Source: a virus. Taken from it: a stretch of DNA of 20,513 nt. Made by a program: the position numbers and the translations under genes. Under the pieces are notes generated by a model. That model did no database searches. It was not told the origin of the DNA and was given only the letters and a program-made list of their open reading frames with translations. The number at the start of each line of letters is the position of its first letter. Within the stretch, counting starts at the first letter, position 1. Location of the stretch: the IMG/VR virus record IMGVR_UViG_3300002835_012175, positions 1 through 20,513 of that record; one strand, given 5' to 3'. Below are positions 481 to 16,023 of this stretch, one piece after another.

Positions 481-500
481 TAAGTAGGTAATAAAAATTC

Positions 501-532
501 AAAAACCCTCCCAATTTCTTGGGAGGGTTTTT
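501..532 (+). terminator. Rho-independent terminator after gp23
   Basis: A perfect 14-bp inverted repeat (501-514 paired with 519-532) surrounds the 4-base loop TTTC. The stem core is CCCTCCC/GGGAGGG, and the right arm ends in a run of five T. It lies 20 bases after the gp23 stop codon, so it probably ends the capsid transcript and separates it from the next gene, which has its own promoter-like box. Confidence 0.93.
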
Positions 533-539
533 GTTTATC

Positions 540-547
540 CATAAATA
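540..547 (+). promoter_or_regulatory. T4-type late promoter box (CATAAATA)
   Basis: CATAAATA followed by a T-run fits the late consensus TATAAATA and the cyanophage form NATAAATA, recognised by a gp55-type sigma factor. It lies between the gp23 terminator and the tail-tube-fold gene. If initiation occurs six bases after the last A, as in T4, the first transcribed base is 553, the A of the ATG. The 7-mer is common by chance in AT-rich DNA; the support comes from its position. Confidence 0.65.
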
Positions 548-552
548 TTTTT

Positions 553-1086: not shown

Positions 1087-1733
1087 AGATAGTCTGCGGG
1101 ATTGTCAGACCAGCTTTCCGGGTCAGTTGGAGGCAGGTCTGGATTGTAGGGCATCTTGGATGCCTCTGGTTTGGTTTTCTTCTTTTTCTTGGGCTTGGGG
1201 GTGGGCTCTTCTTCGGGCGGTGTAATGGCATTTAAACCGCTTTCACCGTCATCCTCAAATTCTTCGTCTTCATCAACTAAAATTTCCACACCTTCAAAAT
1301 TTTCAATTAAGTCGTTTACAAAATTTACAAAATCTTCATTGTTAAATAAGTCATTTAAAAGCTGTAAACCATTTTCTGGAATTTCTTCAACATCACCATT
1401 TCCAACAATTGCTTTTGGATCTGTTTGCATGGTAAGAAAAAATACTTCATACATTTTTTCCAACTCAATGGTTGGTTGGCCCGAGTATATGATAACGGAT
1501 CTGTTAAGATTGATTTCAAAACTTTTTATATTTGAAATATAATTCGTAAGCTTTACGTATTCTACGACACTATTATTTTCTTTTGCATAATAGTTTTGCA
1601 GCAAAGCCGGAAGCTTTACTGTTATTTTATCTAGAGATGTCTCATTTACTAGACCGATGATTTCTTCACCGGTGTTTAACTTTAATACTCTCAAAATACC
1701 TGAGAGCGGATGTTCAGGAAGTGAATCGGACAT
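1083..1733 (-). CDS. Sm/LSm-like phage protein with charged C-terminal tail
   Basis: 216 residues from ATG 1733, preceded by a good Shine-Dalgarno (GGGAGG at 1746-1741, 7 bases from the ATG). Residues about 12-100 look like an Sm fold: the opening strands GILRVLKLNTGEEIIGLV (Sm1-like, with the G-EEIIG turn) and, further on, a strand RSVIIYSGQPTIELEKMYE that could be Sm2. The rest is an acidic helical stretch (about 116-164) followed by a proline- and lysine-rich tail (PKPKKKKKTK at 179-188). Sm-like proteins form rings that bind RNA; I recall a structural report of an Sm-like protein of putative cyanophage origin, which I cannot check here. The gene is the last of the minus-strand block and follows uvsW, whose stop codon overlaps its promoter. 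Molecular role unknown; RNA binding is inferred from the fold. Confidence 0.7.
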   Translation of the reverse strand: MSDSLPEHPLSGILRVLKLNTGEEIIGLVNETSLDKITVKLPALLQNYYAKENNSVVEYVKLTNYISNIKSFEINLNRSVIIYSGQPTIELEKMYEVFFLTMQTDPKAIVGNGDVEEIPENGLQLLNDLFNNEDFVNFVNDLIENFEGVEILVDEDEEFEDDGESGLNAITPPEEEPTPKPKKKKKTKPEASKMPYNPDLPPTDPESWSDNPADYL

Positions 1734-1753
1734 TTTATGTCCTCCCTTCCTTA

Positions 1754-3253: not shown

Positions 3254-3257
3254 ATAA

Positions 3258-3265
3258 TATTTATG
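3258..3265 (-). promoter_or_regulatory. Late promoter box (CATAAATA) abutting the uvsW start
   Basis: On the minus strand CATAAATA runs 3265 to 3258. T4-type spacing places the first transcribed base at about 3252-3253, that is at the GTG start of uvsW. UvsW is a late protein in T4, which agrees. If the alternative TTG start (3268) were used, this box would lie inside the coding region and be meaningless. Confidence 0.6.
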
Positions 3266-3270
3266 CAAAA

Positions 3271-3288
3271 ACTTAAATTAATTTAAGT
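3271..3288. repeat. 18-bp perfect palindrome between methyltransferase gene and uvsW
   Basis: ACTTAAATTAATTTAAGT equals its own reverse complement. It covers the stop of the methyltransferase gene (3280-3278). On the minus strand it is followed by a run of five T, so it could be a weak terminator that ends the methyltransferase transcript just before the uvsW late promoter. The stem is almost all A-T, so termination would be weak; it may also be incidental in such AT-rich DNA. Confidence 0.4.
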
Positions 3289-3901
3289 AAATAAAAATTA
3301 AACAATTATCAAATGAATTATTTTTATTTTCTAAAATTTTTATAATATATGTAAAATTATTTTTTTCTTTTAAATAATTTAATTCCCGTATATAATCGTT
3401 AATTTTATCAAAAATTATATCTTCAATAATATAAATTCCAGACGGTTTTAATTTGTGTATTGAATGTTTTAAAAAATTAATATTTGCATCCAATTCATGT
3501 AAACCATCATCAATCATTATATCAAATTGAATATTTTTTAATTTTTCATTATTCCACAATATATCTATTGTTTCGCTGTTTGTTTGATCTACGTAAAAAG
3601 TACTTATACGATCATCTGAAAAAAGAATTCTGGAATCTATATCAGCACCATATATATGTGCATTTAAAAAATATTCTTTCCAACCATATAAGGATGCTCC
3701 TGGTCTGCCATTTTCTCCCATGTTTGAAGGAATATCTGTATTATTGGTCCCCAAACCAAGTTCAAAAATATTTGATGCGTTATCTTTAATATTTTTAAAA
3801 ATTCTAGAATATTCTAAAGTATAATTGTGATGACCAGATAAACCCGGAGCTTTATCGCTTTGGTTTTTTTCCATTATTTTACATAATTCTGTTTTATTCA
3901 T
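3278..3901 (-). CDS. Class I SAM-dependent methyltransferase, MycE/CmcI-like
   Basis: 207 residues from ATG 3901. The SAM-binding motif is FELGLGTNN (46-54), the post-I acidic strand is GADID (85-89), and a metal-site-like IDDGLHE follows at 130-136. The block NGRPGASLYGWKEYF (64-78) and the IDDGLHE motif are typical of the MycE-type sugar O-methyltransferases and the related CmcI family of macrolide and cephalosporin pathways. A role in methylating a sugar is therefore plausible but inferred. It is extremely AT-rich (8 G+C in the 60 bases 3361-3420), unlike uvsW next to it and like the glycan cargo on the other strand. This suggests it was acquired with, or like, that cargo and landed between uvsY and uvsW. 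A late-type box lies 16 bases before the ATG. No Shine-Dalgarno sequence is seen. Confidence 0.75.
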   Translation of the reverse strand: MNKTELCKIMEKNQSDKAPGLSGHHNYTLEYSRIFKNIKDNASNIFELGLGTNNTDIPSNMGENGRPGASLYGWKEYFLNAHIYGADIDSRILFSDDRISTFYVDQTNSETIDILWNNEKLKNIQFDIMIDDGLHELDANINFLKHSIHKLKPSGIYIIEDIIFDKINDYIRELNYLKEKNNFTYIIKILENKNNSFDNCLIFIYLN

Positions 3902-3917
3902 ATTATTTTTATAAAAA

Positions 3918-3925
3918 TATTTATA
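3918..3925 (-). promoter_or_regulatory. Late promoter box (TATAAATA) for the methyltransferase gene
   Basis: A perfect T4 late consensus, TATAAATA, runs from 3925 to 3918 on the minus strand, followed by TTTTT. Its TAA is the stop codon of uvsY (3923-3921). T4-type spacing would start the transcript at about 3912, giving an 11-base leader before ATG 3901. Confidence 0.65.
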
Positions 3926-4358
3926 CTATACCTTGGCTTATTTTATACCAATCTATAGCAGACTTTATTACAAAATTTCTATTATTAAGTGAACGCAAAA
4001 ACTCTTCAACCATCTTTAGTTTTACTTCGCTGACGGCTATCTTGGATTTTAATTCAATGACTTTTGGATCAGCTTCAATAAACTGTTCCACATCACTCTT
4101 GAGCAAAGTCAGATCGGATGGATCTTCTCCCCATAATTCCAACTCCTCTTGAGAGGCTTTTCCTGTATAAATTTTCCACTTGCGCAATTTTAAAATTGCC
4201 AAGTCATGCTGCTGTTTGGTCAACAGCAATTTGACATCTGATAAAATTGTAAGATACTTTGAGTGTATTTGAGGTATCTTAAGAGACTCTATTCCTAACT
4301 CTGTAGAGTCTATTTGAGAGTCTTTAGTAATAAGTTCTTTAAGGTTCTCTAGATTCAT
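3921..4358 (-). CDS. uvsY: UvsY recombination mediator
   Basis: 145 residues from ATG 4358. T4 UvsY forms a ring that loads the UvsX recombinase onto gp32-coated single-stranded DNA. The N-terminus, MNLENLKELITKDSQIDSTE, lines up with T4 UvsY (MRLEDLQEELKKDVFIDSTK), and both continue with a Y/SK(Y/W)L segment, a KIYTGKAS stretch like KLDYYSG, and a C-terminal RNFVIKSAIDW like RGFAIKHIQDM. Length is near T4's 137 residues. The gene is first in the minus-strand block and diverges from the glycan cassette across a 92-base control region. Its stop codon is part of the next gene's late promoter box. Its own upstream region has a sigma-70-like TTGACA and no NATAAATA box, consistent with early or middle expression. 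Confidence 0.92.
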   Translation of the reverse strand: MNLENLKELITKDSQIDSTELGIESLKIPQIHSKYLTILSDVKLLLTKQQHDLAILKLRKWKIYTGKASQEELELWGEDPSDLTLLKSDVEQFIEADPKVIELKSKIAVSEVKLKMVEEFLRSLNNRNFVIKSAIDWYKISQGIV

Positions 4359-4372
4359 CTTTTATAGATTAC

Positions 4373-4399
4373 TCTATAGTATACTCTAGATAATGTCAA
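4373..4399 (-). promoter_or_regulatory. Possible sigma-70-like promoter for uvsY
   Basis: On the minus strand a perfect -35 TTGACA (4399-4394) is followed, after a short 15-base spacer, by TATAGA (4378-4373). A start near 4366 would leave a leader of about 8 bases before ATG 4358. The spacer is shorter than ideal, and a T4-style middle promoter cannot be excluded. Confidence 0.4.
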
Positions 4400-4417
4400 A
4401 TAAATATATTTGACATT
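4392..4417. repeat. Inverted repeat in the uvsY / glycan-cassette divergent region
   Basis: A perfect 11-bp inverted repeat, 4392-4402 and 4407-4417, with the loop AATA. Each arm contains TTGACA pointing outward, so the two arms provide the -35 element for both divergent transcripts. The left arm and loop together also contain AATAAATA (4399-4406), a late-type box for the plus strand. As a DNA operator or RNA hairpin it could couple the two directions. Regulation is inferred; the symmetry and sequence are seen directly. Confidence 0.7.
4399..4406 (+). promoter_or_regulatory. Possible late promoter box (AATAAATA) for the glycan cassette
   Basis: AATAAATA fits NATAAATA and would start transcription near 4412, giving a leader of about 39 bases before ATG 4451. 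It is nested inside the inverted repeat. The 8-mer is not rare in AT-rich DNA, so confidence is modest. Confidence 0.4.
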
Positions 4418-4437
4418 TAAGTAATATAAATTATATT
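4410..4437 (+). promoter_or_regulatory. Sigma-70-like promoter for the glycan cassette
   Basis: TTGACA (4410-4415), a 16-base spacer and TATATT (4432-4437) make a near-consensus bacterial promoter. The predicted start is about 4444, a few bases before ATG 4451. It is the only good promoter I see ahead of the tightly packed cassette, suggesting early transcription by host polymerase. Confidence 0.55.
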
Positions 4438-4450
4438 GATCGTGAGCTTT

Positions 4451-5086
4451 ATGATTATTGATTTAAGAGAAATACCAGTTGTTTGGATAAATTTAGATTC
4501 TGCAACCAAAAACGCGGAATGTATGGAAGCCAAATTAAAAAATTATGGTTTCAAACAATCTTATAGAAAATCTGCAAGAATCTTGCCGGCACCACCGGGA
4601 ACTATACCGAGCAATGCACATTACGTTGGTTGTGCCCAGTCACACATAGACATTTTAGATGATCAAAATTACAAAACACCACTGCTGATTCTTGAAGATG
4701 ATGCAGAATTTTCTGATTGTTTTGATCCGATAATAGAAATACCAGATGATTCAGACGGAATCTACCTAGGAATTTCTACAGGTAATATAAATTACCAAAC
4801 CAAAAAATATAACCAAAATTATTTAAGAATTGGTGGAATTTTAGCAACGCATGCAATCTTATATGTGACTGATTCTTTTAGAAAAGATATGTCTGCCGTT
4901 GCAAAACACTGCATTGATAATCTTAAACAACCTTGGGATGTTGGGGCGTCCCAATTACAATTTTACAGAAGGGTTTATACTCCAAATAAACCTTACTTTT
5001 ATCAATCTGACAACAGAGAATCTGCTAATAAATGGCAATTTTTTACAGACAATAAATTAGAAGATAAAAATTCAATATACCTATGA
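4451..5086 (+). CDS. GT25-like glycosyltransferase (LPS/collagen-type family)
   Basis: 211 residues from ATG 4451. Upstream in-frame TTG 4436 and GTG 4442 would only add residues with no homology feel. The opening IPVVWINLDSATKNAECM matches the GT25 start (VxxINLxxxxxR). The family's central pattern GCAQSHIDIL (SH near the start of a helix) is followed by LLILEDDAEF with the metal/nucleotide-binding E82-D83-D84. GT25 enzymes transfer galactose or glucose in bacterial lipo-oligosaccharide and in collagen. First gene of the cassette, just after the divergent promoter region; its stop overlaps the next start as ATGA. Donor and acceptor cannot be told from sequence. Confidence 0.75.
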   Translation: MIIDLREIPVVWINLDSATKNAECMEAKLKNYGFKQSYRKSARILPAPPGTIPSNAHYVGCAQSHIDILDDQNYKTPLLILEDDAEFSDCFDPIIEIPDDSDGIYLGISTGNINYQTKKYNQNYLRIGGILATHAILYVTDSFRKDMSAVAKHCIDNLKQPWDVGASQLQFYRRVYTPNKPYFYQSDNRESANKWQFFTDNKLEDKNSIYL

Positions 5087-5622
5087 TTAATACCACAACA
5101 TATTCTCAAGCTGGGCAAGATTTATTTGTTTTAAACCAAACAAACTATTTAAAAAATGGTCTTTTTGTTGAGTTGGGTGGATGCCATCCAGTAAATGGAA
5201 ACAACTCTTTTATATTAGAATCAAATTATGATTGGGATGGCATTAGTATTGAAATTGACCCATCATATAATACTTTATGGTCTGAATTGCGTAAATGTAA
5301 ATTCGTAAACAGCGATGCATTTACAGTCAATTACGTTGATGAATTTGAAAAACTATTAAAAAAGCATAATAAAAAAGAAAAACATTTTAACTATTTGTCT
5401 TTAGATTTAGAACCTCCCGAATTAACATGTAAATTATTGTTTACTCTACCATTAAAAATATATAAATTTGATGTAATAACATATGAACATGATTCATATA
5501 GAGTAGGGACTATTTACAAAGAAATTGCAAATAATTATTTAACAAGTTTAGGGTATGTTCGTTTAAAAGAGGACATAGCCCATGAAAACTGTATCTTTGA
5601 AGATTGGTATGTATTAAAATAA
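5083..5622 (+). CDS. FkbM-family methyltransferase
   Basis: 179 residues from ATG 5083, overlapping the previous gene by ATGA. The FkbM hallmarks are visible: YSQAGQDLFV at 7-16, then NGLFVELGGCHPVNGNNSF (25-43), the SAM-binding region, then ISIEIDP. The mid-region YLSLDLEPPELTCK and VITYEHD correspond to the later core strands. FkbM-type enzymes O-methylate sugars and secondary metabolites using SAM. It is a little shorter than many members, and nothing is obviously missing. Within the cassette it probably caps a sugar hydroxyl; the substrate is not known. Confidence 0.8.
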   Translation: MINTTTYSQAGQDLFVLNQTNYLKNGLFVELGGCHPVNGNNSFILESNYDWDGISIEIDPSYNTLWSELRKCKFVNSDAFTVNYVDEFEKLLKKHNKKEKHFNYLSLDLEPPELTCKLLFTLPLKIYKFDVITYEHDSYRVGTIYKEIANNYLTSLGYVRLKEDIAHENCIFEDWYVLK

Positions 5623-5625
5623 TTT

Positions 5626-6411
5626 ATGATAACATTTAATAATCTTGGAAAACTTGGTAGATTTGGAAACCAAATGTTTCAATATGCATCCCTTTACGGA
5701 ATAGCAAAGAAAAATGGTTATGAATATGGCATCCCTTATAATAATAAATCAAATAATGAATATTTAAATTTTTGTTTAAATGAAGCTTTTGATAATTTAA
5801 GTGCTAAAAATTGCATAAATTATGATGTTCAGTATCAGTATACTGAACCTTTTTTTAATTATAACCCAGAAGTAGAAAAAATACCGGACAATACAGATCT
5901 TGTAGGATACTTTCAAAGTGAAAAATATTTTTTACAATATAAAGAAGATATATTAAAAGAATTTACTTTTAATAAAAATATTCAAAAAGAAGCAAATGAT
6001 ATCAAAAATGAGCATAAATCAGAAATCATATCTTTGCACATACGAATTGGTGATTATTTAAATTGGCCAGATAAACATCCAGTATGTTCTATTGAGTACT
6101 ATAAACAAGCATTAAATATGTTACCAGATTGTAAAATTTTTCTATTCAGTGATGAAATTGAAAAAGCTAAAGTTATTTTTGAAGATATTTCAGATAAAAT
6201 TGTTTATCAACAAAATAAAAATTCTTACATAGACATGTGTCTCATGACTCTGTGTGACTATCATATTATAGCAAATAGCTCTTTTAGTTGGTGGGGAGCC
6301 TGGTTATCAAATTCCAAAAAAGTTATAGCCCCATCAAAATGGTTTGGCAATAGAGATGATGCTCCAAAAGATTGGAGAGATATTTATTGTAGTGATTGGA
6401 TTGTTATATGA
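5626..6411 (+). CDS. GT11 alpha-1,2-fucosyltransferase-like protein
   Basis: 261 residues from ATG 5626, three bases after the preceding stop. The three GT11 signatures are all present and in order: GRFGNQMFQYA (11-21), the donor-binding HIRIGDY (138-144, the HxRxGDY motif), and NSSFSWWGAWL (217-227). GT11 enzymes transfer fucose from GDP-fucose to the 2-position of galactose, as in H-antigen synthesis and bacterial O-antigens. No GDP-fucose genes (gmd, fcl) are in this window, so fucose would come from the host or from elsewhere in the phage. Strong AT bias like its neighbours. It may act before the GT6 enzyme encoded at 13815. Its stop overlaps the next ATG as ATGA. Confidence 0.88.
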   Translation: MITFNNLGKLGRFGNQMFQYASLYGIAKKNGYEYGIPYNNKSNNEYLNFCLNEAFDNLSAKNCINYDVQYQYTEPFFNYNPEVEKIPDNTDLVGYFQSEKYFLQYKEDILKEFTFNKNIQKEANDIKNEHKSEIISLHIRIGDYLNWPDKHPVCSIEYYKQALNMLPDCKIFLFSDEIEKAKVIFEDISDKIVYQQNKNSYIDMCLMTLCDYHIIANSSFSWWGAWLSNSKKVIAPSKWFGNRDDAPKDWRDIYCSDWIVI

Positions 6412-7022
6412 AAAATATAGAATGTATATTATTTGATTTAGACGGAGTTTTGGTTGATGCGTGCGATTGGCATTATGAAGCTTTAAATAAATCATTATAT
6501 GATATTATTGGTATAAAAATTTCCAAAGAAGATCATGAATCAAAATATAATGGATTACCGACAAAAATTAAATTAAAAATGTTAAATGTTGATGAATTGT
6601 ATTTTGAAAAAATATGGGATTTAAAACAAAAATATACAATAGATATTATTAAATCAAATTTAACTTTATTGTCTGATAAAATAAAGTTGCATCAATATTT
6701 AAAAAACAATAATATAAAAATTTGTTGTGTTACAAATTCAATTAAAAACACAGCAGAGTTGATGTTATCATTATCTGGTCAATTACAATACATTGATTTG
6801 TTGGTAACAAATGAAAATATAAAAAATAATAAACCAAGTTCAGAATGCTACGATTTTGCAATAAAAGAAATAAATTGTGATCCAAAATATTCTATATGCG
6901 TGGAAGATTCACAGACTGGAATTTTAGCCGCACAAAATTCTTTAATTAAAAATTTGTGGCAAGTAAAAAACAGTAAAGAAGTTAATTTAATTAATTTTAA
7001 AAAATATATAAAAACATTATGA
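6408..7022 (+). CDS. HAD-superfamily phosphatase / beta-phosphoglucomutase-like
   Basis: 204 residues from ATG 6408. A TTG at 6396 lies in frame, but it falls inside the preceding gene, and the ATG gives the usual HAD start and the ATGA overlap seen along the cassette. Motif I is FDLDGVLVD (9-17) with the nucleophile D10 and acid/base D12; motif II is VTNS; motif III the Lys in NNKPSS; motif IV CVEDSQTG. The helical cap after motif I, with YNGLPTKIKLK, fits the beta-phosphoglucomutase subgroup. It could dephosphorylate or isomerise a sugar phosphate before activation by the nucleotidyltransferase encoded immediately downstream. That coupling is inferred from adjacency and overlap. Confidence 0.8.
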   Translation: MKNIECILFDLDGVLVDACDWHYEALNKSLYDIIGIKISKEDHESKYNGLPTKIKLKMLNVDELYFEKIWDLKQKYTIDIIKSNLTLLSDKIKLHQYLKNNNIKICCVTNSIKNTAELMLSLSGQLQYIDLLVTNENIKNNKPSSECYDFAIKEINCDPKYSICVEDSQTGILAAQNSLIKNLWQVKNSKEVNLINFKKYIKTL

Positions 7023-7735
7023 AAATATTAATACCAATGGCAGGTGAAGGCAGTAGATTTGCAAAAGAAGGTTATACGTTTCCAAAACCATTAATTGATG
7101 TTGCTGGAAAACCTATGATTCAAAGAGTTGTTGAAAACTTAGATTTTGATGCAGAATATATCTTCTTAGTAAGAAAAGAACATCTAGAAAAATATTCTGG
7201 ATTAAAATCTACATTATTTGGAATAACAAATTCAAATACTAAAATTGTTGAAGTTGATTCTTTAACCGAAGGGGCTGCTTGCACCGCACTGCTTGCTGAA
7301 GAATACATAAACAATGATGATGATCTTTTAATTGCCAATTCAGATCAAATTATAGACTATAGCCCTGAAAATTTTAAATATTTAAAATTGTTAACGGATA
7401 ATATTGATGGAATTGTTTTTTGTTTTAATTCAATGCATCCAAAATGGTCATTTGTAAAAACAAATTCTAGAGGTTTTGTTTGTGAAGTAGCAGAAAAAAA
7501 CCCAATATCAAATATTGCAACTTGCGGTATATATTGGTATAAACGGGGAAGTGACTTTGTAGATTGTGCAAAATCAATGATTGCAAAAAATATAAGAGTC
7601 AACAATGAATTTTATATAGCACCCGTTTACAATGAATTAATTACAAAAAATAAAAAATTAATACCATTTTATGTTAATAAAATGTATGGCATAGGAACGC
7701 CAGAAGATTTAAAATATTACTTAAGCTTATTATGA
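7019..7735 (+). CDS. Sugar-phosphate nucleotidyltransferase (NTP_transferase fold)
   Basis: 238 residues from ATG 7019, overlapping the HAD gene by ATGA. The N-terminal nucleotide loop PMAGEGSRFAKEGYTFPKPL holds the G-x-GSRF motif and the PKP lysine, followed by DVAGKPMIQ, as in RmlA/GlmU-type pyrophosphorylases. LLIANSDQII carries the metal-binding aspartate of the core, and the C-terminal GIGTPEDLKYYL is the common ending. It would make an NDP-activated sugar or polyol from a phosphate ester. There is no acetyltransferase or left-handed helix domain. The substrate cannot be read from sequence. Together with the HAD gene and the GDPD-like gene after it, it forms a three-gene overlapping unit. 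Confidence 0.82.
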   Translation: MKILIPMAGEGSRFAKEGYTFPKPLIDVAGKPMIQRVVENLDFDAEYIFLVRKEHLEKYSGLKSTLFGITNSNTKIVEVDSLTEGAACTALLAEEYINNDDDLLIANSDQIIDYSPENFKYLKLLTDNIDGIVFCFNSMHPKWSFVKTNSRGFVCEVAEKNPISNIATCGIYWYKRGSDFVDCAKSMIAKNIRVNNEFYIAPVYNELITKNKKLIPFYVNKMYGIGTPEDLKYYLSLL

Positions 7736-8169
7736 TAATAATCTCACACAGAGGAAATCTTGATGGAGTAGATCCAATCTATGAAAATATGCCAGATTAT
7801 ATCGAAAAGGCCATCCAACAAGGATTTCAAGTAGAAGTGGATGTTTGGATAAAAAATAATAAAATATTTTTAGGTCATGACCGTCCACAGTACAAAATAA
7901 ATTTAAGTTTTTTAAAAAATAAAAAACTTTGGTGTCATGCAAAAAATTTTGAAGCTATGGATATTATGCTTAAAAATAAAATTCATTGTTTCTGGCATGA
8001 GACTGATAAAATGTGTTTAACTTCAAAAAAAATAATTTGGTGTTATCCCGGAACATTTGTAAGAGGCGGAATAACAGTTGTTTTAAACAAAAATAAAAAC
8101 AATTTAAAAAATTTTTGTTATGGTATATGCACAGATTATCCAAATTATTATTTAAATTTTTTAAAATAA
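7732..8169 (+). CDS. Short GDPD-like phosphodiesterase-family protein
   Basis: 145 residues from ATG 7732, overlapping the nucleotidyltransferase gene by ATGA. The start ISHRGN (H6, R7), the EN at 18-19, the EVDVW block (E35, D37) and LGHD (H49) reproduce the catalytic and metal-binding pattern of glycerophosphodiester phosphodiesterases. The length is only about 60% of a normal GDPD barrel, and the C-terminal half (WCHAKN, CFWHETD, IWCYPG) is of a type I recall from phage and environmental proteins of unknown role. It may act on a phosphodiester-linked or nucleotide-linked sugar or polyol. Function is inferred only; the catalytic residues are seen. Confidence 0.65.
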   Translation: MIIISHRGNLDGVDPIYENMPDYIEKAIQQGFQVEVDVWIKNNKIFLGHDRPQYKINLSFLKNKKLWCHAKNFEAMDIMLKNKIHCFWHETDKMCLTSKKIIWCYPGTFVRGGITVVLNKNKNNLKNFCYGICTDYPNYYLNFLK

Positions 8170-8179
8170 AAATAAAAAA

Positions 8180-8914
8180 ATGAAATTAAAAATAGCAGTT
8201 TGTTATAAAGGTCTTTTAAGAACCATAAAAGACACGTTCAGTAATCATAAAAAATTTTTATTTAATGATAATTATATTGACGTATTTTGCCACACATGGG
8301 ATGATGGAAATGCAGATGCGTATTATTTTGTAAAAAATATAAATGAATGTAAATACATTTTTAAAGAAAAATTTAAAAACTTTTCAAATCATTTATACGA
8401 CTCTATTTTACCGCAAGATAACATTTTAAATATTAAACACGATAATGATAAAAAATATATTGAACCTTACAATAATATAAATTTACACGCTACGCCATAT
8501 AATATATTAAGCCATCTGTATTCTTTACATCAATCATATTTTTTATGTCAATTATATTCCCAAAATAATAATATTAAATATGATTACATCTGTATATTAA
8601 GACCCGACATACTATTTTACGATTATATAAATTATGATGAATTGGATTTAAATAAAATTAATATTTCATGGTTTGAAAGAAAAAATGAATTGTTAAATCA
8701 TGAAGATGCAATAATTGACCACATAGCTATTTCAAGTGAAGAACTTATAAAAACTTATTCAGAAACATTTTTAAATATTTCAAGTTTATATTTAAAACAA
8801 AAAAAACCATTTATCCCAGAAATATTGTTGGGAGCACATTTAAAGCAAAATAATTTACAGACAAATATGTTGTCTACAATACATACTGTTTATAAACCAA
8901 AAGGAACAAAATGA
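8180..8914 (+). CDS. Putative glycosyltransferase, R-x-D family (member 1)
   Basis: 244 residues from ATG 8180. I do not recognise a named family with certainty. The layout is IAVCYKGLLRT at the N-terminus, then IDVFCHTWDD, and a central YDYICILRPDILF with R141-P-D143. This closely parallels the gene at 9615 (CLSGQPRF, VDTFFHFWFDE, YDYVIRMRSD), so the two belong to one family. A GT-A-like arrangement with a short acidic motif after a DY strand suggests a glycosyltransferase. No signal peptide or membrane segment is visible. Very AT-rich. Its stop overlaps the following methyltransferase start as ATGA. Confidence 0.55.
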   Translation: MKLKIAVCYKGLLRTIKDTFSNHKKFLFNDNYIDVFCHTWDDGNADAYYFVKNINECKYIFKEKFKNFSNHLYDSILPQDNILNIKHDNDKKYIEPYNNINLHATPYNILSHLYSLHQSYFLCQLYSQNNNIKYDYICILRPDILFYDYINYDELDLNKINISWFERKNELLNHEDAIIDHIAISSEELIKTYSETFLNISSLYLKQKKPFIPEILLGAHLKQNNLQTNMLSTIHTVYKPKGTK

Positions 8915-9615
8915 TTAATTTAAAAGATATAGAATTGGTGAACACAAATAAGGATTTATATTCATCCTTTAATGAATTTATTTTGAGTGATGATACAAAA
9001 ATTTTTAATAAATTAATAATGAGATCTTTGTTAGTTGATAAAGTAAAAAATGTTCCCGGAGATATTGTAGAATGTGGTGTATTTAAAGGAACTGGATTGC
9101 TTACTTTTTTAAAATTAAAAAATTTATTAATGCCAAATAGCTATAAAAAAATTATAGGCTTTGACTATTTTAATTCAGATGAATTGTTACAAAGTTTGTG
9201 TGGACAAGATAAAGAGGCAATGGAAGTTTTATTTAAACAAAGAAATTTTGAACATAATATCAGTTTTGCAGCTGAATTAAATAAAAAAATTATTTCATAT
9301 GGTTTTAAACAAGAAAATTTTGAATTGGTTTCAGGGGATGTTTCTTATTCGACTAAAAATTTTATAAAAGACAAACCCGGATTTAAAATTTCTTTATTAT
9401 ATATGGATTTGGATTTAGATCTACCCACATACGATGTTTTATGTAATTTTTGGGATAAAATAAGTTTAAATGGAATTGTTGTTTTTGACGAGTATGCCTA
9501 CCACAATTGGTCAGAATCAAAAGGTGTTGATAGATTTTTTAAAGATAAAAATATCAAAATGACCTCATTAAATTGTTTGTGCCCCACAATGTATATTGAA
9601 AAGGAAACAATTTAA
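8911..9615 (+). CDS. TylF/MycF-type O-methyltransferase
   Basis: 234 residues from ATG 8911, overlapping the previous gene by ATGA. The SAM site PGDIVECGVFKGTG (49-62) is the typical TylF start, IIGFDYF provides the second strand, and LLYMDLDLDLPTYDVL plus VVFDEY and WSESKGVDRFF give the metal-binding and C-terminal family pattern. TylF and MycF methylate a hydroxyl of a deoxysugar (macrocin, javose) at the end of macrolide assembly. Here a phage glycan sugar is the likely target. It is the second methyltransferase of the cassette, from a different family than the FkbM gene, so two distinct positions or sugars may be methylated. The next gene starts at its last base (TAATG). Confidence 0.82.
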   Translation: MINLKDIELVNTNKDLYSSFNEFILSDDTKIFNKLIMRSLLVDKVKNVPGDIVECGVFKGTGLLTFLKLKNLLMPNSYKKIIGFDYFNSDELLQSLCGQDKEAMEVLFKQRNFEHNISFAAELNKKIISYGFKQENFELVSGDVSYSTKNFIKDKPGFKISLLYMDLDLDLPTYDVLCNFWDKISLNGIVVFDEYAYHNWSESKGVDRFFKDKNIKMTSLNCLCPTMYIEKETI

Positions 9616-10385
9616 TGAAAATTGCATTGTGTTTATCTGGCCAACCCAGATTTATAAAAGAAGTTTCTCCATATATTTTAAAAAATGTATGTGAAGGCTA
9701 TGATGTGGATACTTTTTTTCATTTTTGGTTTGATGAGGATTTAATCAATAAACCATATAAATACGGCGGAAACGGTGGTTGGATCGACCAAAGGATTGAC
9801 CCAAATGCAATAAATGATGCCATAAACATATATAACCCAAAAAATTATAAAGTAGAACCAAGTAAAAAATTTTATGATAATTTTATAAAAACAGATTATT
9901 GTTTTAGAGATAACGGAGAACTTATTTCTTGGACAAAACATTGGAAAGAATCAAATGAACCAGACTATAGAAATAGAATGGTAAATAACACTCTTTCAAA
10001 TTTTTATAGTATGAATCAAGTTTTGCTTCTTAAAAAGGAAGAAGAATATAAAAATAATAAAAAATACGATTATGTAATCAGGATGAGATCTGATTGTGTA
10101 ATACATACAAAACTAATATATGAATCTTATGATAATAATAAAGTACATTATACAGGTATTTTAAATCAGCCAGATAAAATGGTAGCTGATTGGATAAATT
10201 TTGGAAATTCTATAAATATGGATGTTTTTATGGGAATTTTTTCTATGTTTGATAAAATTTTAAATAAATGTACAAAAAATAAAAATGGAGCTTGGTCAAA
10301 TGAGATGCTGCATAAAACAGCACTAGATATATTTGAAATAGAAACTCAATCCAATTTAATTTTTGTAGAAGTTCCAAGATTTTAA
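9615..10385 (+). CDS. Putative glycosyltransferase, R-x-D family (member 2)
   Basis: 256 residues from ATG 9615, sharing one base with the preceding stop. The N-terminus MKIALCLSGQPRFI, the segment DVDTFFHFWFDED and YDYVIRMRSDCVI (R158-S-D160) match the pattern of the gene at 8180. The SGQPR opening is one I associate with uncharacterised phage and bacterial proteins in glycan clusters. A nucleotide-sugar-dependent transferase is the most likely role. No catalytic residue can be assigned with confidence. It ends one base before the next start. Confidence 0.55.
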   Translation: MKIALCLSGQPRFIKEVSPYILKNVCEGYDVDTFFHFWFDEDLINKPYKYGGNGGWIDQRIDPNAINDAINIYNPKNYKVEPSKKFYDNFIKTDYCFRDNGELISWTKHWKESNEPDYRNRMVNNTLSNFYSMNQVLLLKKEEEYKNNKKYDYVIRMRSDCVIHTKLIYESYDNNKVHYTGILNQPDKMVADWINFGNSINMDVFMGIFSMFDKILNKCTKNKNGAWSNEMLHKTALDIFEIETQSNLIFVEVPRF

Positions 10386-10386
10386 T

Positions 10387-11094
10387 ATGATAAAATTTGT
10401 AGCATACCACCAATGCTTTGATAATTTAAAAGCAACAGAATTTGCAATTAAAAATTTTAAAATTCACAACCCAGAGATACAATATTATCTTGTATCTGAT
10501 GGTGGTAAAGATTTTAGTGAAATAGCAAAAAAATATTCTTGCAAGTATATTTTTGAAAAAGATAACATAGGCATGAATTATTATACTGTAGATCAAGCAC
10601 ATAAAATAATCAATAGATTAAAAGATTGTGCTGTGGACTCTGGTGCAGAATATATTTTGTTGATGGAAGATGATGTTTTATGCAGAAAAAAAATTAATTT
10701 TAATAAAAAAATTGATATAGCTGGCGTTTATTCTCCAGGAAATATTTTTCCAGATGAACTTTTAAAACACATAAGTAAAAAATATACTGTATCTCCAAAC
10801 ATAAATTGGTATAATGCGTGTGGTGGTACACTATTGAATACTGAAATTTTATTAAATAAATATGATTTGATTAAAAAATTTATCGATGAAGATCATGATT
10901 ATATAAAAACAAATTTATCTGGAGAAAAATTTAAATTTGGTTACGGTTCAATGGATCAATTGCTGGTTTTAATTTATTTTATTTGTGGAAAAAATGTATC
11001 AGTTAATGATCAATTAACAGAATACTGGAGAAACCCATCATGGATTAATTCAGATCATGCACTTGTACATCAATATAAGGAACAATATGTCTAA
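10387..11094 (+). CDS. GT-A-fold glycosyltransferase with EDD motif
   Basis: 235 residues from ATG 10387. The N-terminal half reads as a GT-A Rossmann-like domain: FVAYHQCFDNLKATEFAIKN, then YYLVSDGGKDF, YIFEKDNIGMNYY and YILLMEDDVL with E94-D95-D96 as the probable metal/nucleotide-sugar motif. A later YNACGGTLLNTEIL and YGSMDQLL resemble the acceptor-side helices of such enzymes. It does not clearly fit GT2 by signature, so I leave the family open. Its last 8 bases overlap the next gene. Confidence 0.65.
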   Translation: MIKFVAYHQCFDNLKATEFAIKNFKIHNPEIQYYLVSDGGKDFSEIAKKYSCKYIFEKDNIGMNYYTVDQAHKIINRLKDCAVDSGAEYILLMEDDVLCRKKINFNKKIDIAGVYSPGNIFPDELLKHISKKYTVSPNINWYNACGGTLLNTEILLNKYDLIKKFIDEDHDYIKTNLSGEKFKFGYGSMDQLLVLIYFICGKNVSVNDQLTEYWRNPSWINSDHALVHQYKEQYV

Positions 11095-12091
11095 ACAAAA
11101 AGTGATAATTTGGGGCTATCCCCTACACAGCCACACCCATTCGTATATTCACGGGGCTTGGTATAAAACATTTAAGCATTTGGGGTATGATGTTTATTGG
11201 TTTGATGATAATAATTATCCTCAAAATTTTGATTTTACCAATTGCCTGTTTATAACAGAAGGATATGCAGATAATAATATTCCCATAAATGAATCATCGA
11301 CTTATTTTGTTCATATTTGCATAAATCCAGAAAAATATATTTGCAAAAATGCAAGATTAATAGATATAAGATTTAACGTAAGCGAAATTAATGATTGTAA
11401 TTATTCAATAATAGTCGATAAAGAAAAATTGCATAAAATAGATAGTGTATCTTTTTATGAAAAAAATGCAGATGATTCCGTCTTGTCAGACAAATATAAA
11501 AAAGGAATCAAAAATTACGAAGCCATCTATCTAAGTTGGGCAACAGATCTATTACCACATGAATTTAATTATGATGATGTTAATATTCAGCGAGATAACA
11601 CAATTTATTGGATTGGATCAATAGCTCAAAGTAATTACGCAGAAATCAATAAATTTATTAAAAGCTTAAAAAAACATAATATTGACTTTTTACATAATGA
11701 TCCTTGGACTAACCCATTAAGCTGGGAAGCAGCAAAAATATATACTCAAAAATCATTTATTGCTCCAGATTTAAGAGGGTCTGCCAATAGAGACAATGTA
11801 AATGGAAAAGTAGACACGGGTTCAAATCATAAAAAAATTGGTTATATACCGTGTAGAATATTTAAAAACATTAGTTACGGGCAGCTAGGAATAACAAATT
11901 CAAAAGCAGTTTATGATTTATTTGACCAAAATGTCATTTATTCTGATAATGAAGAAGAACTTTTGGATATGTCATTATCAAAAATAAAAAATTTGGATTA
12001 TATTAAGAACCAAATGAAATTTGTGCAAGATAATCACACGTATATGAATAGAGTAGATTCTATACTAAAAGTTTTAAATAAAGAAATTTAA
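11087..12091 (+). CDS. GT-B-like glycosyltransferase (CgeB/GT1-like)
   Basis: 334 residues from ATG 11087. An upstream in-frame ATG at 11057 lies inside the preceding gene, whereas 11087 has a Shine-Dalgarno AAGGA at 11077-11081, five bases away, so I choose 11087. The N-terminus KVIIWGYPLHSHTHSYIHGAW looks like the first domain of a GT-B enzyme. The C-terminal half has YWIGSI, SFIAPDLRGS, IPCRIFKNISYGQLGIT and FVQDNHTYMNRV, which is the usual donor-domain ending of CgeB-like and GT4-like proteins. Donor sugar unknown. A relative of the algal-virus or cyanophage GT-B proteins is possible. Confidence 0.6.
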   Translation: MSKQKVIIWGYPLHSHTHSYIHGAWYKTFKHLGYDVYWFDDNNYPQNFDFTNCLFITEGYADNNIPINESSTYFVHICINPEKYICKNARLIDIRFNVSEINDCNYSIIVDKEKLHKIDSVSFYEKNADDSVLSDKYKKGIKNYEAIYLSWATDLLPHEFNYDDVNIQRDNTIYWIGSIAQSNYAEINKFIKSLKKHNIDFLHNDPWTNPLSWEAAKIYTQKSFIAPDLRGSANRDNVNGKVDTGSNHKKIGYIPCRIFKNISYGQLGITNSKAVYDLFDQNVIYSDNEEELLDMSLSKIKNLDYIKNQMKFVQDNHTYMNRVDSILKVLNKEI

Positions 12092-12093
12092 AA

Positions 12094-12870
12094 ATGACAG
12101 CAACAGCAATAACGGCTCTATATGATATAGATAGAGAAAAAAATGGAGATGGAAGGTCTATTTCAGATTATTTGAACTGGTTTAAAGAAACTCTTAAATT
12201 GGATATAAATTTAGTAATTTATACTGAAAAAAAATTTGAATCATTTATATTAGATAATAGAAAAAAAAATTTTATTTTAAATATCCAACCCATAGAAGAA
12301 ATACCTTACTTTAAGTATAAAACTGACATAGAAAAGATACTTTTTTCGGAAGAGTATATTAAAGCTATAAGCGCAAATGATAGAGTTGAATGTAAACTAC
12401 CACTGTATAATGTAATTCAATATTCTAAATTTGATTGGATTGTTGATACAATAGATAACAAATTTTTTAATAGTAAGTATTATTTTTGGATGGATGCCGG
12501 CATAAGTAGATTTTTTGATGACATGGATTTATGCAATTGGCCAAAAAAATATAATCTACTAAAAGAAAACAAATTAAATATTCAAGGAAATTTTAATATT
12601 TTTAAATTTCAACAGAATTGGCCTGGTTCAGATCAATATATTTGGGACTGTAATACGATGCTGTGTGGTGGATTGTTTGGTGGTACTGAAGCTATAATGA
12701 AACATATAAAACTAATAGTTAAAGATAAATTTGAATATTACCTAAAAAACAAATGTGTAAATAACGAGCAAATTATTTTAGGAATTATAATGAAAGAAAA
12801 TCCAGAGTTATTCAACATTCATTTTAATTTTAATGGAAAACCTTTGCCTTTTTTAAAAGATCTAGCATAA
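12094..12870 (+). CDS. HtrL/YibB-like family protein
   Basis: 258 residues from ATG 12094. The start TALYDIDREKNGDGRSISDYLNWF is the family pattern of HtrL/YibB (T-x-LYDI-R, then YL-WF), followed by LVIYTEKKFESFI. The central YYFWMDAGISRFF (W132, D134, G136) and MLCGGLFGG match the conserved second half. Members of this family occur in LPS-core and capsule loci (YibB in E. coli, Wla-type in Campylobacter) and are presumed glycosyltransferases, though I know of no firm reaction. In-frame, no membrane helix. Two bases separate it from the preceding stop. CATAATATTTTT just downstream, before the next ATG, resembles a decayed late box. Confidence 0.75.
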   Translation: MTATAITALYDIDREKNGDGRSISDYLNWFKETLKLDINLVIYTEKKFESFILDNRKKNFILNIQPIEEIPYFKYKTDIEKILFSEEYIKAISANDRVECKLPLYNVIQYSKFDWIVDTIDNKFFNSKYYFWMDAGISRFFDDMDLCNWPKKYNLLKENKLNIQGNFNIFKFQQNWPGSDQYIWDCNTMLCGGLFGGTEAIMKHIKLIVKDKFEYYLKNKCVNNEQIILGIIMKENPELFNIHFNFNGKPLPFLKDLA

Positions 12871-12877
12871 TATTTTT

Positions 12878-13846
12878 ATGAAAATAGCTTTAATTGGCCC
12901 AGGAATAATGTCAATCCCTCCCAATAATTGGGGTGCTGTCGAAAGCTTAATATGGGATCAGTATGAATATTTAAAAGATCTCGGCGTATCGGTTAATATA
13001 ATAAACAATCCAAACTTAAAAGAGGTTGCCGATCAAGTAAATAAAACCGATTATGATTTCGTACATTTACAGTATGATGATCATGCTAGAATTTTAAATA
13101 AACTAATCCAGAAACCATTTTGTACAACAACTCATTACGGATATATAAAAGAACAATATCCAAATTACTATGGATGGAAGCACATTTTTGATGGTGTACT
13201 GGAAAGCAAGGGTATCATTGCCCTGTCACCAGAAATAGAATTGCTGTTCAAGGATGCTGGATATAAAAATTTTATAAAAACACTTAGAAACGGGGCAAGA
13301 ACAAATAACTTTAGGTTTAGCACCTATGCTCCAAAAGATGGGTTATGTCTTGGTAAAGTTGAACCAAGAAAAAGGCAGGCAGACCTATCAAAGCTTTGTG
13401 GGAATAAATGTAATATTGATTTTATCGGGCCCGTAATAGATTATAATTTTAGAGAGAATAATACATGTAAGTATGGCGGTGTATGGGATAAACCATCCCT
13501 ATACCAGAACATGACGCAATACAAGTGCCTTGTTCTTCTTAGCGATGGCGAAGCAGCTCCTTTAGTCGTCCCAGAAGCACTTTCTGCTGGTTTGAGTATT
13601 GTCGTATCAAAGACTGCTGCTGCTAATCTGGACACAAGCCTGCCCTTCATACATGTATTGGAAAACGGTCTTGATGATCGTTCTCCCGATGTTATATCAA
13701 AAGCCATCCAAGAAAACGTTAAATATAGAGAGCAGATTAGAGAATATGCAGTTAGTCACTTTGACTGGTCTGTTATATGTAAAGAATATATAGAAATTGT
13801 GAAAGAATTTATAAATGAAAATAGCCTTTGTAACAATAGCAACTAA
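12878..13846 (+). CDS. GT4-family glycosyltransferase
   Basis: 322 residues from ATG 12878. The N-terminal domain starts MKIALIGPGIMSIPPNNWGAVE, a classic GT4 opening with the glycine loop and WGGxE-like turn. The donor domain has CLGKVEPRKRQ (nucleotide-sugar loop) and LSDGEAAPLVVPEALSAGLSIV, the E-x7-E motif region. The probable product is a retaining sugar transfer using an NDP-sugar. GC content rises sharply inside the gene (16 of 60 bases at 12961-13020, 29 of 60 at 13501-13560), unlike the genes before it. It overlaps the GT6 gene by 32 bases. Confidence 0.85.
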   Translation: MKIALIGPGIMSIPPNNWGAVESLIWDQYEYLKDLGVSVNIINNPNLKEVADQVNKTDYDFVHLQYDDHARILNKLIQKPFCTTTHYGYIKEQYPNYYGWKHIFDGVLESKGIIALSPEIELLFKDAGYKNFIKTLRNGARTNNFRFSTYAPKDGLCLGKVEPRKRQADLSKLCGNKCNIDFIGPVIDYNFRENNTCKYGGVWDKPSLYQNMTQYKCLVLLSDGEAAPLVVPEALSAGLSIVVSKTAAANLDTSLPFIHVLENGLDDRSPDVISKAIQENVKYREQIREYAVSHFDWSVICKEYIEIVKEFINENSLCNNSN

Positions 13847-14522
13847 CAAGTATATTAAGTTTGCAGAAAATTTATTGGATTCTTTGGGAAAGTATTCTTT
13901 CCTAAATGAAAATTTTAAAGTTAATTTGTTTGTCTTTTCAAACGTACCCCAAATTTTTAATTTAAAAAACGGAAGAATTGACACAAAGGGAATAATGACC
14001 ACACATGTTCCGTTTCCAATGATATCTCTTTTGAGGTATCATTATTACGGTAGTTGCCAAGAGCTGGAAAACTATGATTATATTTTTCATATAGACTGCG
14101 ATATGGAACTAAAACAAGTGGTTGGCCAAGAAATACTTTCAGAAAGAACCTGTGTATTGCATCCCGGATTTACATGGAACCAAGATGTAAATTCTTATCC
14201 ATATGATAGAAATGATCAAAGTAATGCATATGTCGCATATGGTGATGGAAAGCAGTATTACCAAAACTGCTTTCAGGGAGGATCTTCACAAGAATTTTTA
14301 AAAATGTGTTCCACATTGAAACACAGGGCGGAAGAAGATTTAAGAAAAAATTATATAGCACTCTGGCATGATGAGAGCTACATGAATCGTTATATGGTGG
14401 AAAATCCACCCACACTAGTTTTGCCACCGACATACGCACAGCCAGAGAACTGGCCTCCTTTTGGTGAAACAAAAATAATGCACTTGGTTAAGAATCATCT
14501 TGAAATGAGGATAAGCACATGA
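13815..14522 (+). CDS. GT6-family (ABO/alpha-1,3-Gal(NAc) transferase-like) glycosyltransferase
   Basis: 235 residues from ATG 13815. The GT6 landmarks are in order: IATNKYIKFAENLLDS (8-23), PFPMISLLRYHYY, YDYIFHIDCDME with the DXD metal site D94-C95-D96, HPGF, YYQNCFQGGSSQEFLKM, IALWHDESYMNRY (W184-H185-D186-E187-S188) and HLVKNHLEMR. Animal members are the ABO A/B transferases and alpha-1,3-galactosyltransferase, which add Gal or GalNAc to galactose, in the ABO case to the fucosylated H structure. From memory, most bacterial GT6 proteins have NXN instead of DXD, and the cyanophage P-SSM2 member keeps DXD; this gene has the DXD form, so it should be metal-dependent. It has no membrane anchor. 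Overlaps GT4 by 32 bases and the epimerase by ATGA. Confidence 0.88.
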   Translation: MKIAFVTIATNKYIKFAENLLDSLGKYSFLNENFKVNLFVFSNVPQIFNLKNGRIDTKGIMTTHVPFPMISLLRYHYYGSCQELENYDYIFHIDCDMELKQVVGQEILSERTCVLHPGFTWNQDVNSYPYDRNDQSNAYVAYGDGKQYYQNCFQGGSSQEFLKMCSTLKHRAEEDLRKNYIALWHDESYMNRYMVENPPTLVLPPTYAQPENWPPFGETKIMHLVKNHLEMRIST

Positions 14523-15418
14523 AATATTTGGTTACCGGTGGAGCGGGATTTATAGGTTCAAACATCGTAAATGAACTCATTGCAGAAGGTCATGAAGTAG
14601 ACGTAATCGATGATCTATCTTCAGATGCACATGAAGAATTTTATTTTAATGAAAATGCAACATACCATCTGGTGTCTGTCTTGGACTATACCTTATGTTC
14701 AGATGTAATGAACGTCTGTAAACCAGATTATGTTTTGCATCTTGCCGCAGAGGCAAGAATACAAAATTGTGTATTGGACCCAACAAAAGCATATGAAACG
14801 AATTTGATCGGGACACTCAACATGCTTGCTTTGTGTAAAAAATATTCAGTCAAACGTCTAGTTCTGTCCTCAACATCTGCAATATATGGGTTGAAAAACA
14901 CAGGCCCATTGAATGAATCGATGTTACCGGATTGTCTTAATGCATACTCTCTTTCAAAATACAATGCAGAGCAGGCATGTGAACTTTACGGCAAAATGTA
15001 TGGTCAAGACACAATATGTTTAAGATACTTTAATGTTTATGGGCCCAACCAACCCACCAAAGGACAATACGCCCCCGTCATCGGAGTATTTCAAAGACAA
15101 AAGACAAATAATCAAAGTTTGACTGTCGTGGGTGATGGAGAGCAAACCAGAGATTATGTTCATGTGAAAGATGTTGTTGCGGCAAACATATTAGCATCAC
15201 AACACCCCGGTACTTTTACTGGTGATGTTTTTAACGTAGGCTGTGGTAAAAATTATTCAGTAAACTGGATTGCAAATAAGATTGAATCCGATAAAACTAA
15301 AATAACAAATATTCCAGCAAGAGGTGGTGAAGCTCGTGATACCATTTCAAACATAGAAAAGATAAAAAGTGTTTTTGGATGGCAACCATCTATATCTTTA
15401 GATGAATGGCTTAAGTGA
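14519..15418 (+). CDS. NAD-dependent sugar epimerase/dehydratase (extended SDR, GalE-like)
   Basis: 299 residues from ATG 14519, overlapping the GT6 gene by ATGA. The NAD-binding motif TGGAGFIGSN (6-15), LHLAAEARI, LSSTSAIYG, the catalytic Y143-x3-K147 in NAYSLSKYNAE, RYFNVYGPNQP and DYVHVKDVV are the standard extended-SDR signature. UDP-glucose/UDP-GlcNAc 4-epimerase is the closest generic role; dehydratase or other NDP-sugar epimerase activity cannot be excluded. Placed directly after GT6, it could supply UDP-Gal or UDP-GalNAc. The protein ends at SLDEWLK, slightly short of many relatives. Last gene of the cassette. Confidence 0.85.
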   Translation: MKYLVTGGAGFIGSNIVNELIAEGHEVDVIDDLSSDAHEEFYFNENATYHLVSVLDYTLCSDVMNVCKPDYVLHLAAEARIQNCVLDPTKAYETNLIGTLNMLALCKKYSVKRLVLSSTSAIYGLKNTGPLNESMLPDCLNAYSLSKYNAEQACELYGKMYGQDTICLRYFNVYGPNQPTKGQYAPVIGVFQRQKTNNQSLTVVGDGEQTRDYVHVKDVVAANILASQHPGTFTGDVFNVGCGKNYSVNWIANKIESDKTKITNIPARGGEARDTISNIEKIKSVFGWQPSISLDEWLK

Positions 15419-15456: not shown

Positions 15457-16023
15457 GTGAAAAAGCCTAAAAAGAAAAAGAAAAAAGAAACTGATGCTGA
15501 TTACGTAAGCAACCAAGCTTTATATGATGCATTAGTAGACTATAAAATAAAAATAACAGATGCAGAAAATGCTGGAAGAAAAAAGCCAAAGCTTCCGGAT
15601 TTTATTGGAGAATGTGTTTTAAAAATAGCTACGAGACTTTCTTTTAGGCCAAATTTTGCAAATTATCCATATAGAGAAGAAATGGTATCCGATGCAGTGT
15701 TAAATTGCATAACATATATTGATAATTTTGATCCCAGCAAGTCTACTAGCCCATTTGGCTACCTTACCCAGATTTGCTGGTTTTCTTTTGTACGGATAAT
15801 AAACAAAGAGAAAAAAGAAAAATACGTTCAGTATAAGTTTGCTGAACAAAAAAACGATAAAGACTTTCATAATTGGTTTAATGAGACCTATGCAGGTATA
15901 GACATAGGTCGAAGAGATTTTTTTGGATTAACCGATCTGGATATGGAAAGATTTGATGAGATGTTAAGTACAAAAAAATCAAAAAGAAAGAAAAGAACAA
16001 AAAAAGGTCTATTTGATATATGA
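15457..16023 (+). CDS. 55: Late-transcription sigma factor gp55
   Basis: 188 residues from GTG 15457; there is no ATG near the start of the homology. T4 gp55 (185 residues) replaces sigma-70 on host RNA polymerase and recognises TATAAATA late promoters, stimulated by the gp45 clamp. After a lysine-rich start (KKPKKKKKK) the sequence YVSNQALYDALVDYK lines up with T4 YVNNKELLQAIIDWK. Further matches are FRPNFANYPYREEMVSDAV, YIDNFDPSKSTSPFGYLTQICWFSFVR and NKEKKEKY, the region-2-like DNA- and polymerase-binding core. The C-terminal tail is also basic, ending KKGLFDI. Its presence fits the late boxes seen elsewhere in the window. Its stop overlaps the start of gene 47 as ATGA. Confidence 0.94.
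   Translation: MKKPKKKKKKETDADYVSNQALYDALVDYKIKITDAENAGRKKPKLPDFIGECVLKIATRLSFRPNFANYPYREEMVSDAVLNCITYIDNFDPSKSTSPFGYLTQICWFSFVRIINKEKKEKYVQYKFAEQKNDKDFHNWFNETYAGIDIGRRDFFGLTDLDMERFDEMLSTKKSKRKKRTKKGLFDI

Follow-up and report, generated by a model that had tools for sequence, protein, structure and literature searches.

The DNA analysed here, referred to as the window, comprises an entire IMG/VR contig (IMGVR_UViG_3300002835_012175; 20,513 bases), a fragment of the genome of an aquatic T4-like myovirus. An 11-kb island of 15 genes, every one of them on the plus strand, is bounded in it by the core genes uvsY and gp55, and its genes include members of glycosyltransferase (GT) families GT11 and GT6, kin of the human H and A/B blood-group enzymes, together with a GalE-like short-chain dehydrogenase/reductase (SDR). 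The reading that we favour, with a probability of about 0.55, is that this is a hypervariable island whose soluble enzymes would build a branched fucosylated or L-galactosylated glycan, probably on virion proteins. The features on which the argument turns are the following.

3921-4358, minus strand: UvsY, the final core gene ahead of the island (PF11056, 7.1e-26)
4436-5086, plus strand: GT25-like transferase, the near-constant first island gene (PF01755, 0.0021, under the cut-off)
5626-6411, plus strand: GT11, alpha-1,2-fucosyltransferase family (PF01531, 1.3e-26)
12878-13846, plus strand: GT4-type transferase, predicted functional partner of GT6 (PF00534, 3.3e-05)
13815-14522, plus strand: GT6 transferase of DXD (here DCD) type with a Gln-Asn-Cys pocket (PF03414, 3.7e-31)
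14519-15418, plus strand: extended SDR, GalE-like nucleotide-sugar 4-epimerase (PF01370, 1.1e-57)
15457-16023, plus strand: gp55-like late sigma factor, the first core gene past the island (PF04542, 0.0042)

A first-pass annotation had read GT11, GT6 and the epimerase as a possible A/B-like blood-group pathway, and the identity of all three genes was borne out. The GT11 match lies well above its cut-off (94 bits against 23.9) and the motifs that had been called complete are present: H138-x-R140, D143 and SSFSWWGA, conserved among 161 non-redundant homologues. The product is a putative alpha-1,2-fucosyltransferase, with GDP-fucose or, as in some relatives, GDP-L-galactose as its possible donor. 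The GT6 gene is likewise real, scoring 108.5 bits with PF03414 against a cut-off of 25; it also matches NCBIfam Gltr_6 at 2.9e-48, below the 250-bit cut-off of that model, and it gave no match in any of 14 control genomes. Its nearest solved relatives are Bacteroides ovatus BoGT6a (4ayj; 4.7e-35) and then human ABO (around 3e-26). The SDR does overlap GT6 by ATGA, at 14519-14522, and its translation carries the extended-SDR epimerase motifs TGGAGFIG and YSLSK; its best equivalog is galE (TIGR01179, 3.3e-51), yet the score of 174.1 bits is below the cut-off of 262.3, and its best structure match is T. maritima GalE (4zrm, 7e-59).

The GT6 motifs, also described as complete, were found to be so only in part. 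WHDES, the DXD metal site and the C-terminal Lys/Arg are all there, but the positions governing donor and acceptor choice are not ABO-like. Human ABO GTA/GTB are of the same GT6 fold family and share DXD, WHDES and the C-terminal KNH..R with the window enzyme; their donor residues, defined as Leu/Gly or Met/Ala at 266/268 (PMC4202792), are aligned with Gln and Cys, the human Leu266-Gly267-Gly268 becoming Gln-Asn-Cys in place of an ABO-like Ala/Leu-Gly-Gly. In addition, Thr245 of ABO is replaced by Pro, and the residue three ahead of the C-terminal Lys is His, where human ABO and P-SSM2-type phage GT6 have Ala. In ABO this Ala makes space for the fucose of the acceptor. BoGT6a has NAN, is metal-independent (PMC3961637) and carries Ala-Gly-Gly, whereas the DCD and C-terminal Lys...Arg of the window enzyme suggest that it is probably metal-dependent. 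DXD is found in all phage GT6; many bacterial GT6 have NXN, a mark of metal independence (PMC3961637).

On their aligned residues, phage GT6 proteins fall into two predicted pocket types, and the two keep different company. The Ala-Gly-Gly type, with Ala ahead of the Lys, comprises 51 non-redundant phage GT6, none of which has a GT4 neighbour and 35 of which have GT11 within 3 kb. The Gln-x-Cys type, mostly with His, comprises 25 non-redundant phage GT6 and the window; in this type GT4 forms a fusion with GT6 in 7 non-redundant loci, or nine before redundancy is removed, and is its neighbour in 11. The fusions are single GT4+GT6 open reading frames (ORFs) in nine cyanophage-type contigs (L089, L090, L091, L097, L099, L101, L104, L105 and L106; that of L089, at 7488-9158, is 557 aa long), and GT4 adjoins GT6 in L002-L014. 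GT4 and GT6 of the window overlap by 32 nt, a layout repeated in L003, L010 and L014. Furthermore, the G+C content is 34.5-37% in GT4, GT6 and the SDR, and 22-28% in the genes between 5083 and 12870. Because of this distinct composition, the 32-nt overlap and the GT4 fusion or adjacency in the Gln-x-Cys type, the window GT6 is placed with a GT4-GT6-SDR module rather than with GT11.

In a tree the Gln-Asn-Cys clade of the window stands apart from the cyanophage Gln-Gly-Cys clade, in a split without starred support; a single phylogenetic origin of the Gln-x-Cys pocket was not adopted, convergence being a possible alternative on this unsupported split. Freshwater Polynucleobacter (L241, L242) have a DXD, Gln-Gly-Cys/His GT6 which groups with the cyanophage type, and phage-host exchange is possible; this was too weak to name Polynucleobacter as the host. 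Naming a host from UvsW was also rejected as too weak, the nearest isolates, Methylophilales phage Melnitz and Pelagibacter phage HTVC008M, being only 46% identical. One contig, L289, has two GT6 genes, at 3952-4662 and 6039-6758, one of each pocket type.

Outside the window GT11 and GT6 are closely linked. In a survey of named phages both genes were located in 17 records; in 16 of these GT11 precedes GT6 on the same strand, and in 10 the two are no more than 5 nt apart or overlap (DSL-LC02, DSL-LC03, B23, Bellamy, SynMITS9220M01, S-8S53, S-8S55, S-8S56, S-CAM9 and S-PRM1). In the 80 top-scoring viral contigs from a profile scan, GT11 lies no more than 6 kb from GT6 in 49, upstream and on the same strand in every case (49/49). 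In bacteria GT11 lies within 8 kb in 40/80, mostly downstream of GT6, so the order GT11 then GT6 is peculiar to phages. The distances between GT6 proteins and those between GT11 proteins co-vary (Mantel r=0.56, reached in 0/2000 shuffles), to which shared ancestry contributes, and 12 far-apart pairs likewise co-vary (r=0.63). Plain co-occurrence (GT11 in 23/24 GT6-bearing records) was set aside as evidence within the clade of the window, since a control anchored on UvsW, which does not select for sugar genes, found GT11 in 38/49 islands of that clade; the cyanophage adjacency was retained as evidence.

Some phage loci also hold genes for the predicted donor sugar: in 13 that are non-redundant, fcl overlaps the 5' side of GT11, and gmd adjoins fcl in 10 of them. 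Contiguous gmd-fcl-GT11-GT6 was found in three environmental phage contigs (L312:3294-6696, L344:3285-6696 and L289:1189-4662), each a candidate for a complete blood-group-like operon; the gmd genes of L312 and L344 reach 567-574 bits (cut-off 415) and their fcl genes 461-480 bits, slightly under the fcl cut-off of 500. In four cyanophages, S-CAM9, S-PRM1, SynMITS9220M01 and Bellamy, it is instead a GDP-mannose-3',5'-epimerase-like SDR which overlaps the 5' side of GT11, replacing gmd/fcl, to give an overlapping epimerase-GT11-GT6 unit of three genes (L352:7068-9717, L353, L351 and L023:10116-12717). The S-CAM9 and Bellamy proteins match the Arabidopsis enzyme (2c59) at 6e-81 and 2e-82 and keep SAC(I/M)YP and EKAPAA, and those of SynMITS9220M01 and S-PRM1 reach 526 and 845 bits in comparison with GDP-mannose-3',5'-epimerase. 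This epimerase makes GDP-L-galactose, and L-galactose is 6-hydroxy-fucose; GT11 in these four phages may thus transfer L-galactose in place of fucose.

These observations support the proposed A/B-like pathway at the level of the family and argue against its strict version in the window phage. In its strict form GT11 would make the H disaccharide and GT6 would add alpha-1,3-Gal or GalNAc to the same galactose, giving a true trisaccharide. Escherichia coli O86 offers a precedent, where the characterised GT11 WbwK and GT6 WbnI make the H and then the B antigen (PMC4202792) and where, as in the window, both genes lie within one locus; ABO and BoGT6a being the nearest solved relatives of GT6, the adjacent or operonic genes of many other phages and the co-variation of the far-apart pairs argue in the same direction. 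The window itself, however, has Gln-Asn-Cys and His in the pocket rather than Ala/Leu-Gly-Gly and Ala, belongs to a clade which carries GT11 irrespective of GT6, and has a GT6 of the type whose fusion partner or neighbour is GT4 rather than GT11; gmd and fcl are lacking from its contig, and the DXD, GT4-coupled GT6 is set in a phage island without the Wzx/Wzy-like membrane proteins of O86. A true A or B antigen from this phage is possible, but the strict pathway appears unlikely here.

That the island is hypervariable was seen by collecting relatives through UvsW. Of the relatives so fetched, 49 cover 2.5 kb or more of the island; the GT25-like gene is present in 41 of these and GT11 in 38. 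GT6 was found in 0/37 whole UvsW-anchored records, many of whose islands are incomplete, and in one further such record (L184/G001). The relative L081 has 88% DNA identity to the window in the core stretches flanking both sides, and in its island the DNA similarity is confined to GT25 and GT11; L111 has a UvsW 98% identical, yet lacks GT25 and GT11 across 9.5 kb. In L003, L004 and L037, on the other hand, gene order is conserved across the complete cassette, with proteins 56-82% identical, and gp55-like homologues are found beside gp47, in the same position, in L003, L009 and L014. From the gene counts, the loss of similarity in L081 and the synteny of L003/L004/L037, the site is fixed and its 5' end (GT25-like, GT11) near-constant in the clade, while the remainder is exchangeable: closely related phages differ by swaps in the middle of the island, and in the window the GT4-GT6-SDR module forms the 3' end. 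This conservation also bears on whether the island is functionless stuffer, or decaying DNA taken up to fill the head, as has been raised for cyanophage lipopolysaccharide (LPS) clusters (PMC3037559). As every cassette ORF is uninterrupted, most of them overlap and all share a strand, catalytic residues are conserved and synteny is kept at such identities, that explanation is most improbable.

The remaining island genes, and the core genes around them, are listed next.

1-480, plus strand: C-terminal part of the gp23 major capsid protein, a T4-like core gene (PHROG 138 major head protein, 8.8e-55)
1754-3268, minus strand: UvsW helicase, T4-like core, left flank (PF21241 UvsW_N, 4.2e-17, and helicase domains)
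5083-5622, plus strand: FkbM-like methyltransferase (35% identity to L022:11108-11635, annotated as an FkbM protein in DSL-LC02; no Pfam match)
6396-8169, plus strand: HAD hydrolase, nucleoside triphosphate (NTP) transferase and a small unknown protein, a predicted three-gene sugar-activation module (PF13419, PF00483)
8180-8914, plus strand: phrog_13607 protein, probable GT-A transferase, paralogue of 9615-10385 (PHROG 13607, 1.1e-17)
8911-9615, plus strand: TylF-like methyltransferase (PF05711, 1.7e-08)
9615-10385, plus strand: phrog_13607 protein, predicted GT-A fold closest to GT6 structures (AlphaFold pLDDT 87)
10387-11094, plus strand: probable transferase (25% identity to L022:11737-12462, annotated as a glycosyltransferase)
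11057-12091, plus strand: probable GT-B transferase (AlphaFold pLDDT 86)
12094-12870, plus strand: HtrL/YibB family protein (PF09612, 1.9e-16)

By reading of the translations and gene order, the left flank also has a gp19-like tube protein, and gp47, gp46, gp45 and gp44 lie to the right of the sigma factor. The Foldseek top matches of the 9615-10385 model are alpha3GT, BoGT6a and GTA (3e-6), at a TM-score of 0.42-0.49, under 0.5, and those of the 11057-12091 model are TreT, SenB and GT4 (2e-4 and weaker, TM around 0.48); neither has a Pfam assignment. The HAD, NTP transferase and small-protein trio is kept in L003, L021 (17854-19676) and L132; its small protein has a glycerophosphodiesterase-like HRG...EVDV pattern, and in phage B23 the HAD and NTP transferase are one fused protein. 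An ORF at 3278-3901 (minus strand, 23% G+C) in the gap between uvsW and uvsY reads as methyltransferase-like, with no Pfam match, and is missing in L110 (99% identical DNA over 1-3263) and the other near relatives aligned. Scans for promoters and terminators gave promoter-like sites at about the level of shuffled sequence (89 against 82) and were not used.

No predicted membrane helix was found in any cassette protein, and in related loci only 7 of 2,328 ORFs of at least 200 aa have five or more. The cassette therefore encodes no flippase or polymerase, and a phage-encoded Wzx/Wzy route, with a multi-pass flippase and polymerase, was ruled out by this survey. The island could instead alter the LPS or capsule of the infected host through the host's export machinery, blocking superinfection or grazing. 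Such a role was put forward for the LPS genes of P-SSM2 (PMC2984593), and GT25 and YibB are families characteristic of LPS loci; but the cassette lacks a polyprenyl-phosphate transferase, a flippase, a polymerase and membrane proteins of any kind, all of them uncommon in related islands too, and a lytic lifestyle seems likely for the phage, its contig showing no integrase. We regard this alternative as unlikely.

A further target would be the phage DNA, its bases hypermodified in the manner of the T4 alpha- and beta-glucosyltransferases. The phage is T4-like, and DNA glycosylation by phage enzymes is known (PMC12619734 and its references). PF00303, the family of the T4 dCMP hydroxymethylase, was found in 0/24 related records, including five complete GT6+GT11 cyanophage genomes, while T4 gp42 was detected by the same model at 3.4e-16; this test concerns the hydroxymethyl route only and rests on relatives, the window fragment being itself too partial to exclude T4-type DNA glucosylation. 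On this basis glycosylation via hydroxymethylated bases was rejected, and DNA as the target is given very little weight. With neither a phage flippase or polymerase nor PF00303 in the relatives, virion proteins are the likeliest target and the host surface is the main rival.

In the reading that we favour, the soluble enzymes would add sugars in sequence to cytoplasmic acceptors of the infected cell, producing a branched fucosylated (or L-galactosylated) oligosaccharide. GT25 and GT11 would make a Fuc-alpha-1,2-Gal-like element. The SDR would interconvert UDP-Glc(NAc) and UDP-Gal(NAc) for GT4 and GT6, and GT4 with the probably metal-dependent, retaining GT6 would yield a module capped by an alpha-linked sugar, so that GT4-GT6-SDR would be an optional capping module. 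Less certainly, the acceptor would be a virion protein of capsid or fibre, and a swap of islands would alter the sugar coat of the virion, much as in a serotype switch. Mycobacteriophages provide a precedent, their own transferases coating capsid and tail tube proteins (as cited in PMC12619734); their gene set is not homologous as far as compared.

Several points weigh against this reading. Neither an acceptor protein nor an oligosaccharyl-transfer step was identified, the activities of the island enzymes are predictions, and both the GT25 and GT4 matches are under their Pfam cut-offs. The glycan might also leave the cytoplasm through a host flippase, and modification of the host surface therefore stands as an alternative. 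Finally, gmd and fcl are not found on the 20.5-kb contig, in agreement with the earlier remark that GDP-fucose synthesis genes are lacking; since the contig is a fragment, this is not absence from the phage, which may hold them elsewhere or rely on those of the host.

Since P-SSM2, T4-like phages have been known to carry sugar clusters, and whether they are functional or stuffer is a question posed in PMC3037559. The window island is of the same kind as the cyanophage LPS clusters (P-SSM2, S-SM2, S-SSM7), but it lies at uvsY/gp55 and not near hli/phoH. P-SSM2 carries gmd, fcl, GT11, GT6, epimerase and GT25, its GT6 being of the Ala-Gly-Gly/Ala type whereas that of the window is Gln-Asn-Cys. 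Already published are the co-occurrence of T4-GC260 (GT11), 265 (epimerase) and 266 (GT25) in three phages (PMC3037559), GT6 in two cyanophages (PMC3961637), the gmd/fcl/GDP-mannose-3',5'-epimerase/alpha-1,2-fucosyltransferase set of S-SCSM1 (PMC9602691) and the superinfection idea for phage LPS genes (PMC2984593). In the literature searched, outside which most subscription papers fall, we found no account of the GT11-GT6 phage operon, of GT4 fused to GT6, of two GT6 pocket types or of islands being exchanged at uvsY/gp55.

Tentatively, then, phages may hold self-contained blood-group-like operons, in a fucose or an L-galactose variant of H, and exchange whole islands at one fixed site to switch virion serotype, with the window representing a second, GT4-coupled or fused GT6 type having another donor and acceptor. 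The compact operons make function testable in culturable cyanophages, for which the donor sugar can be predicted along with the sequence of transfers and the terminal cap, and the specificity classes AGG/Ala and QxC/His offer natural variation in the ABO pocket for enzymologists to study. If the product does coat virions, phages would own blood-group-like antigens, and cassette exchange would amount to serotype switching.

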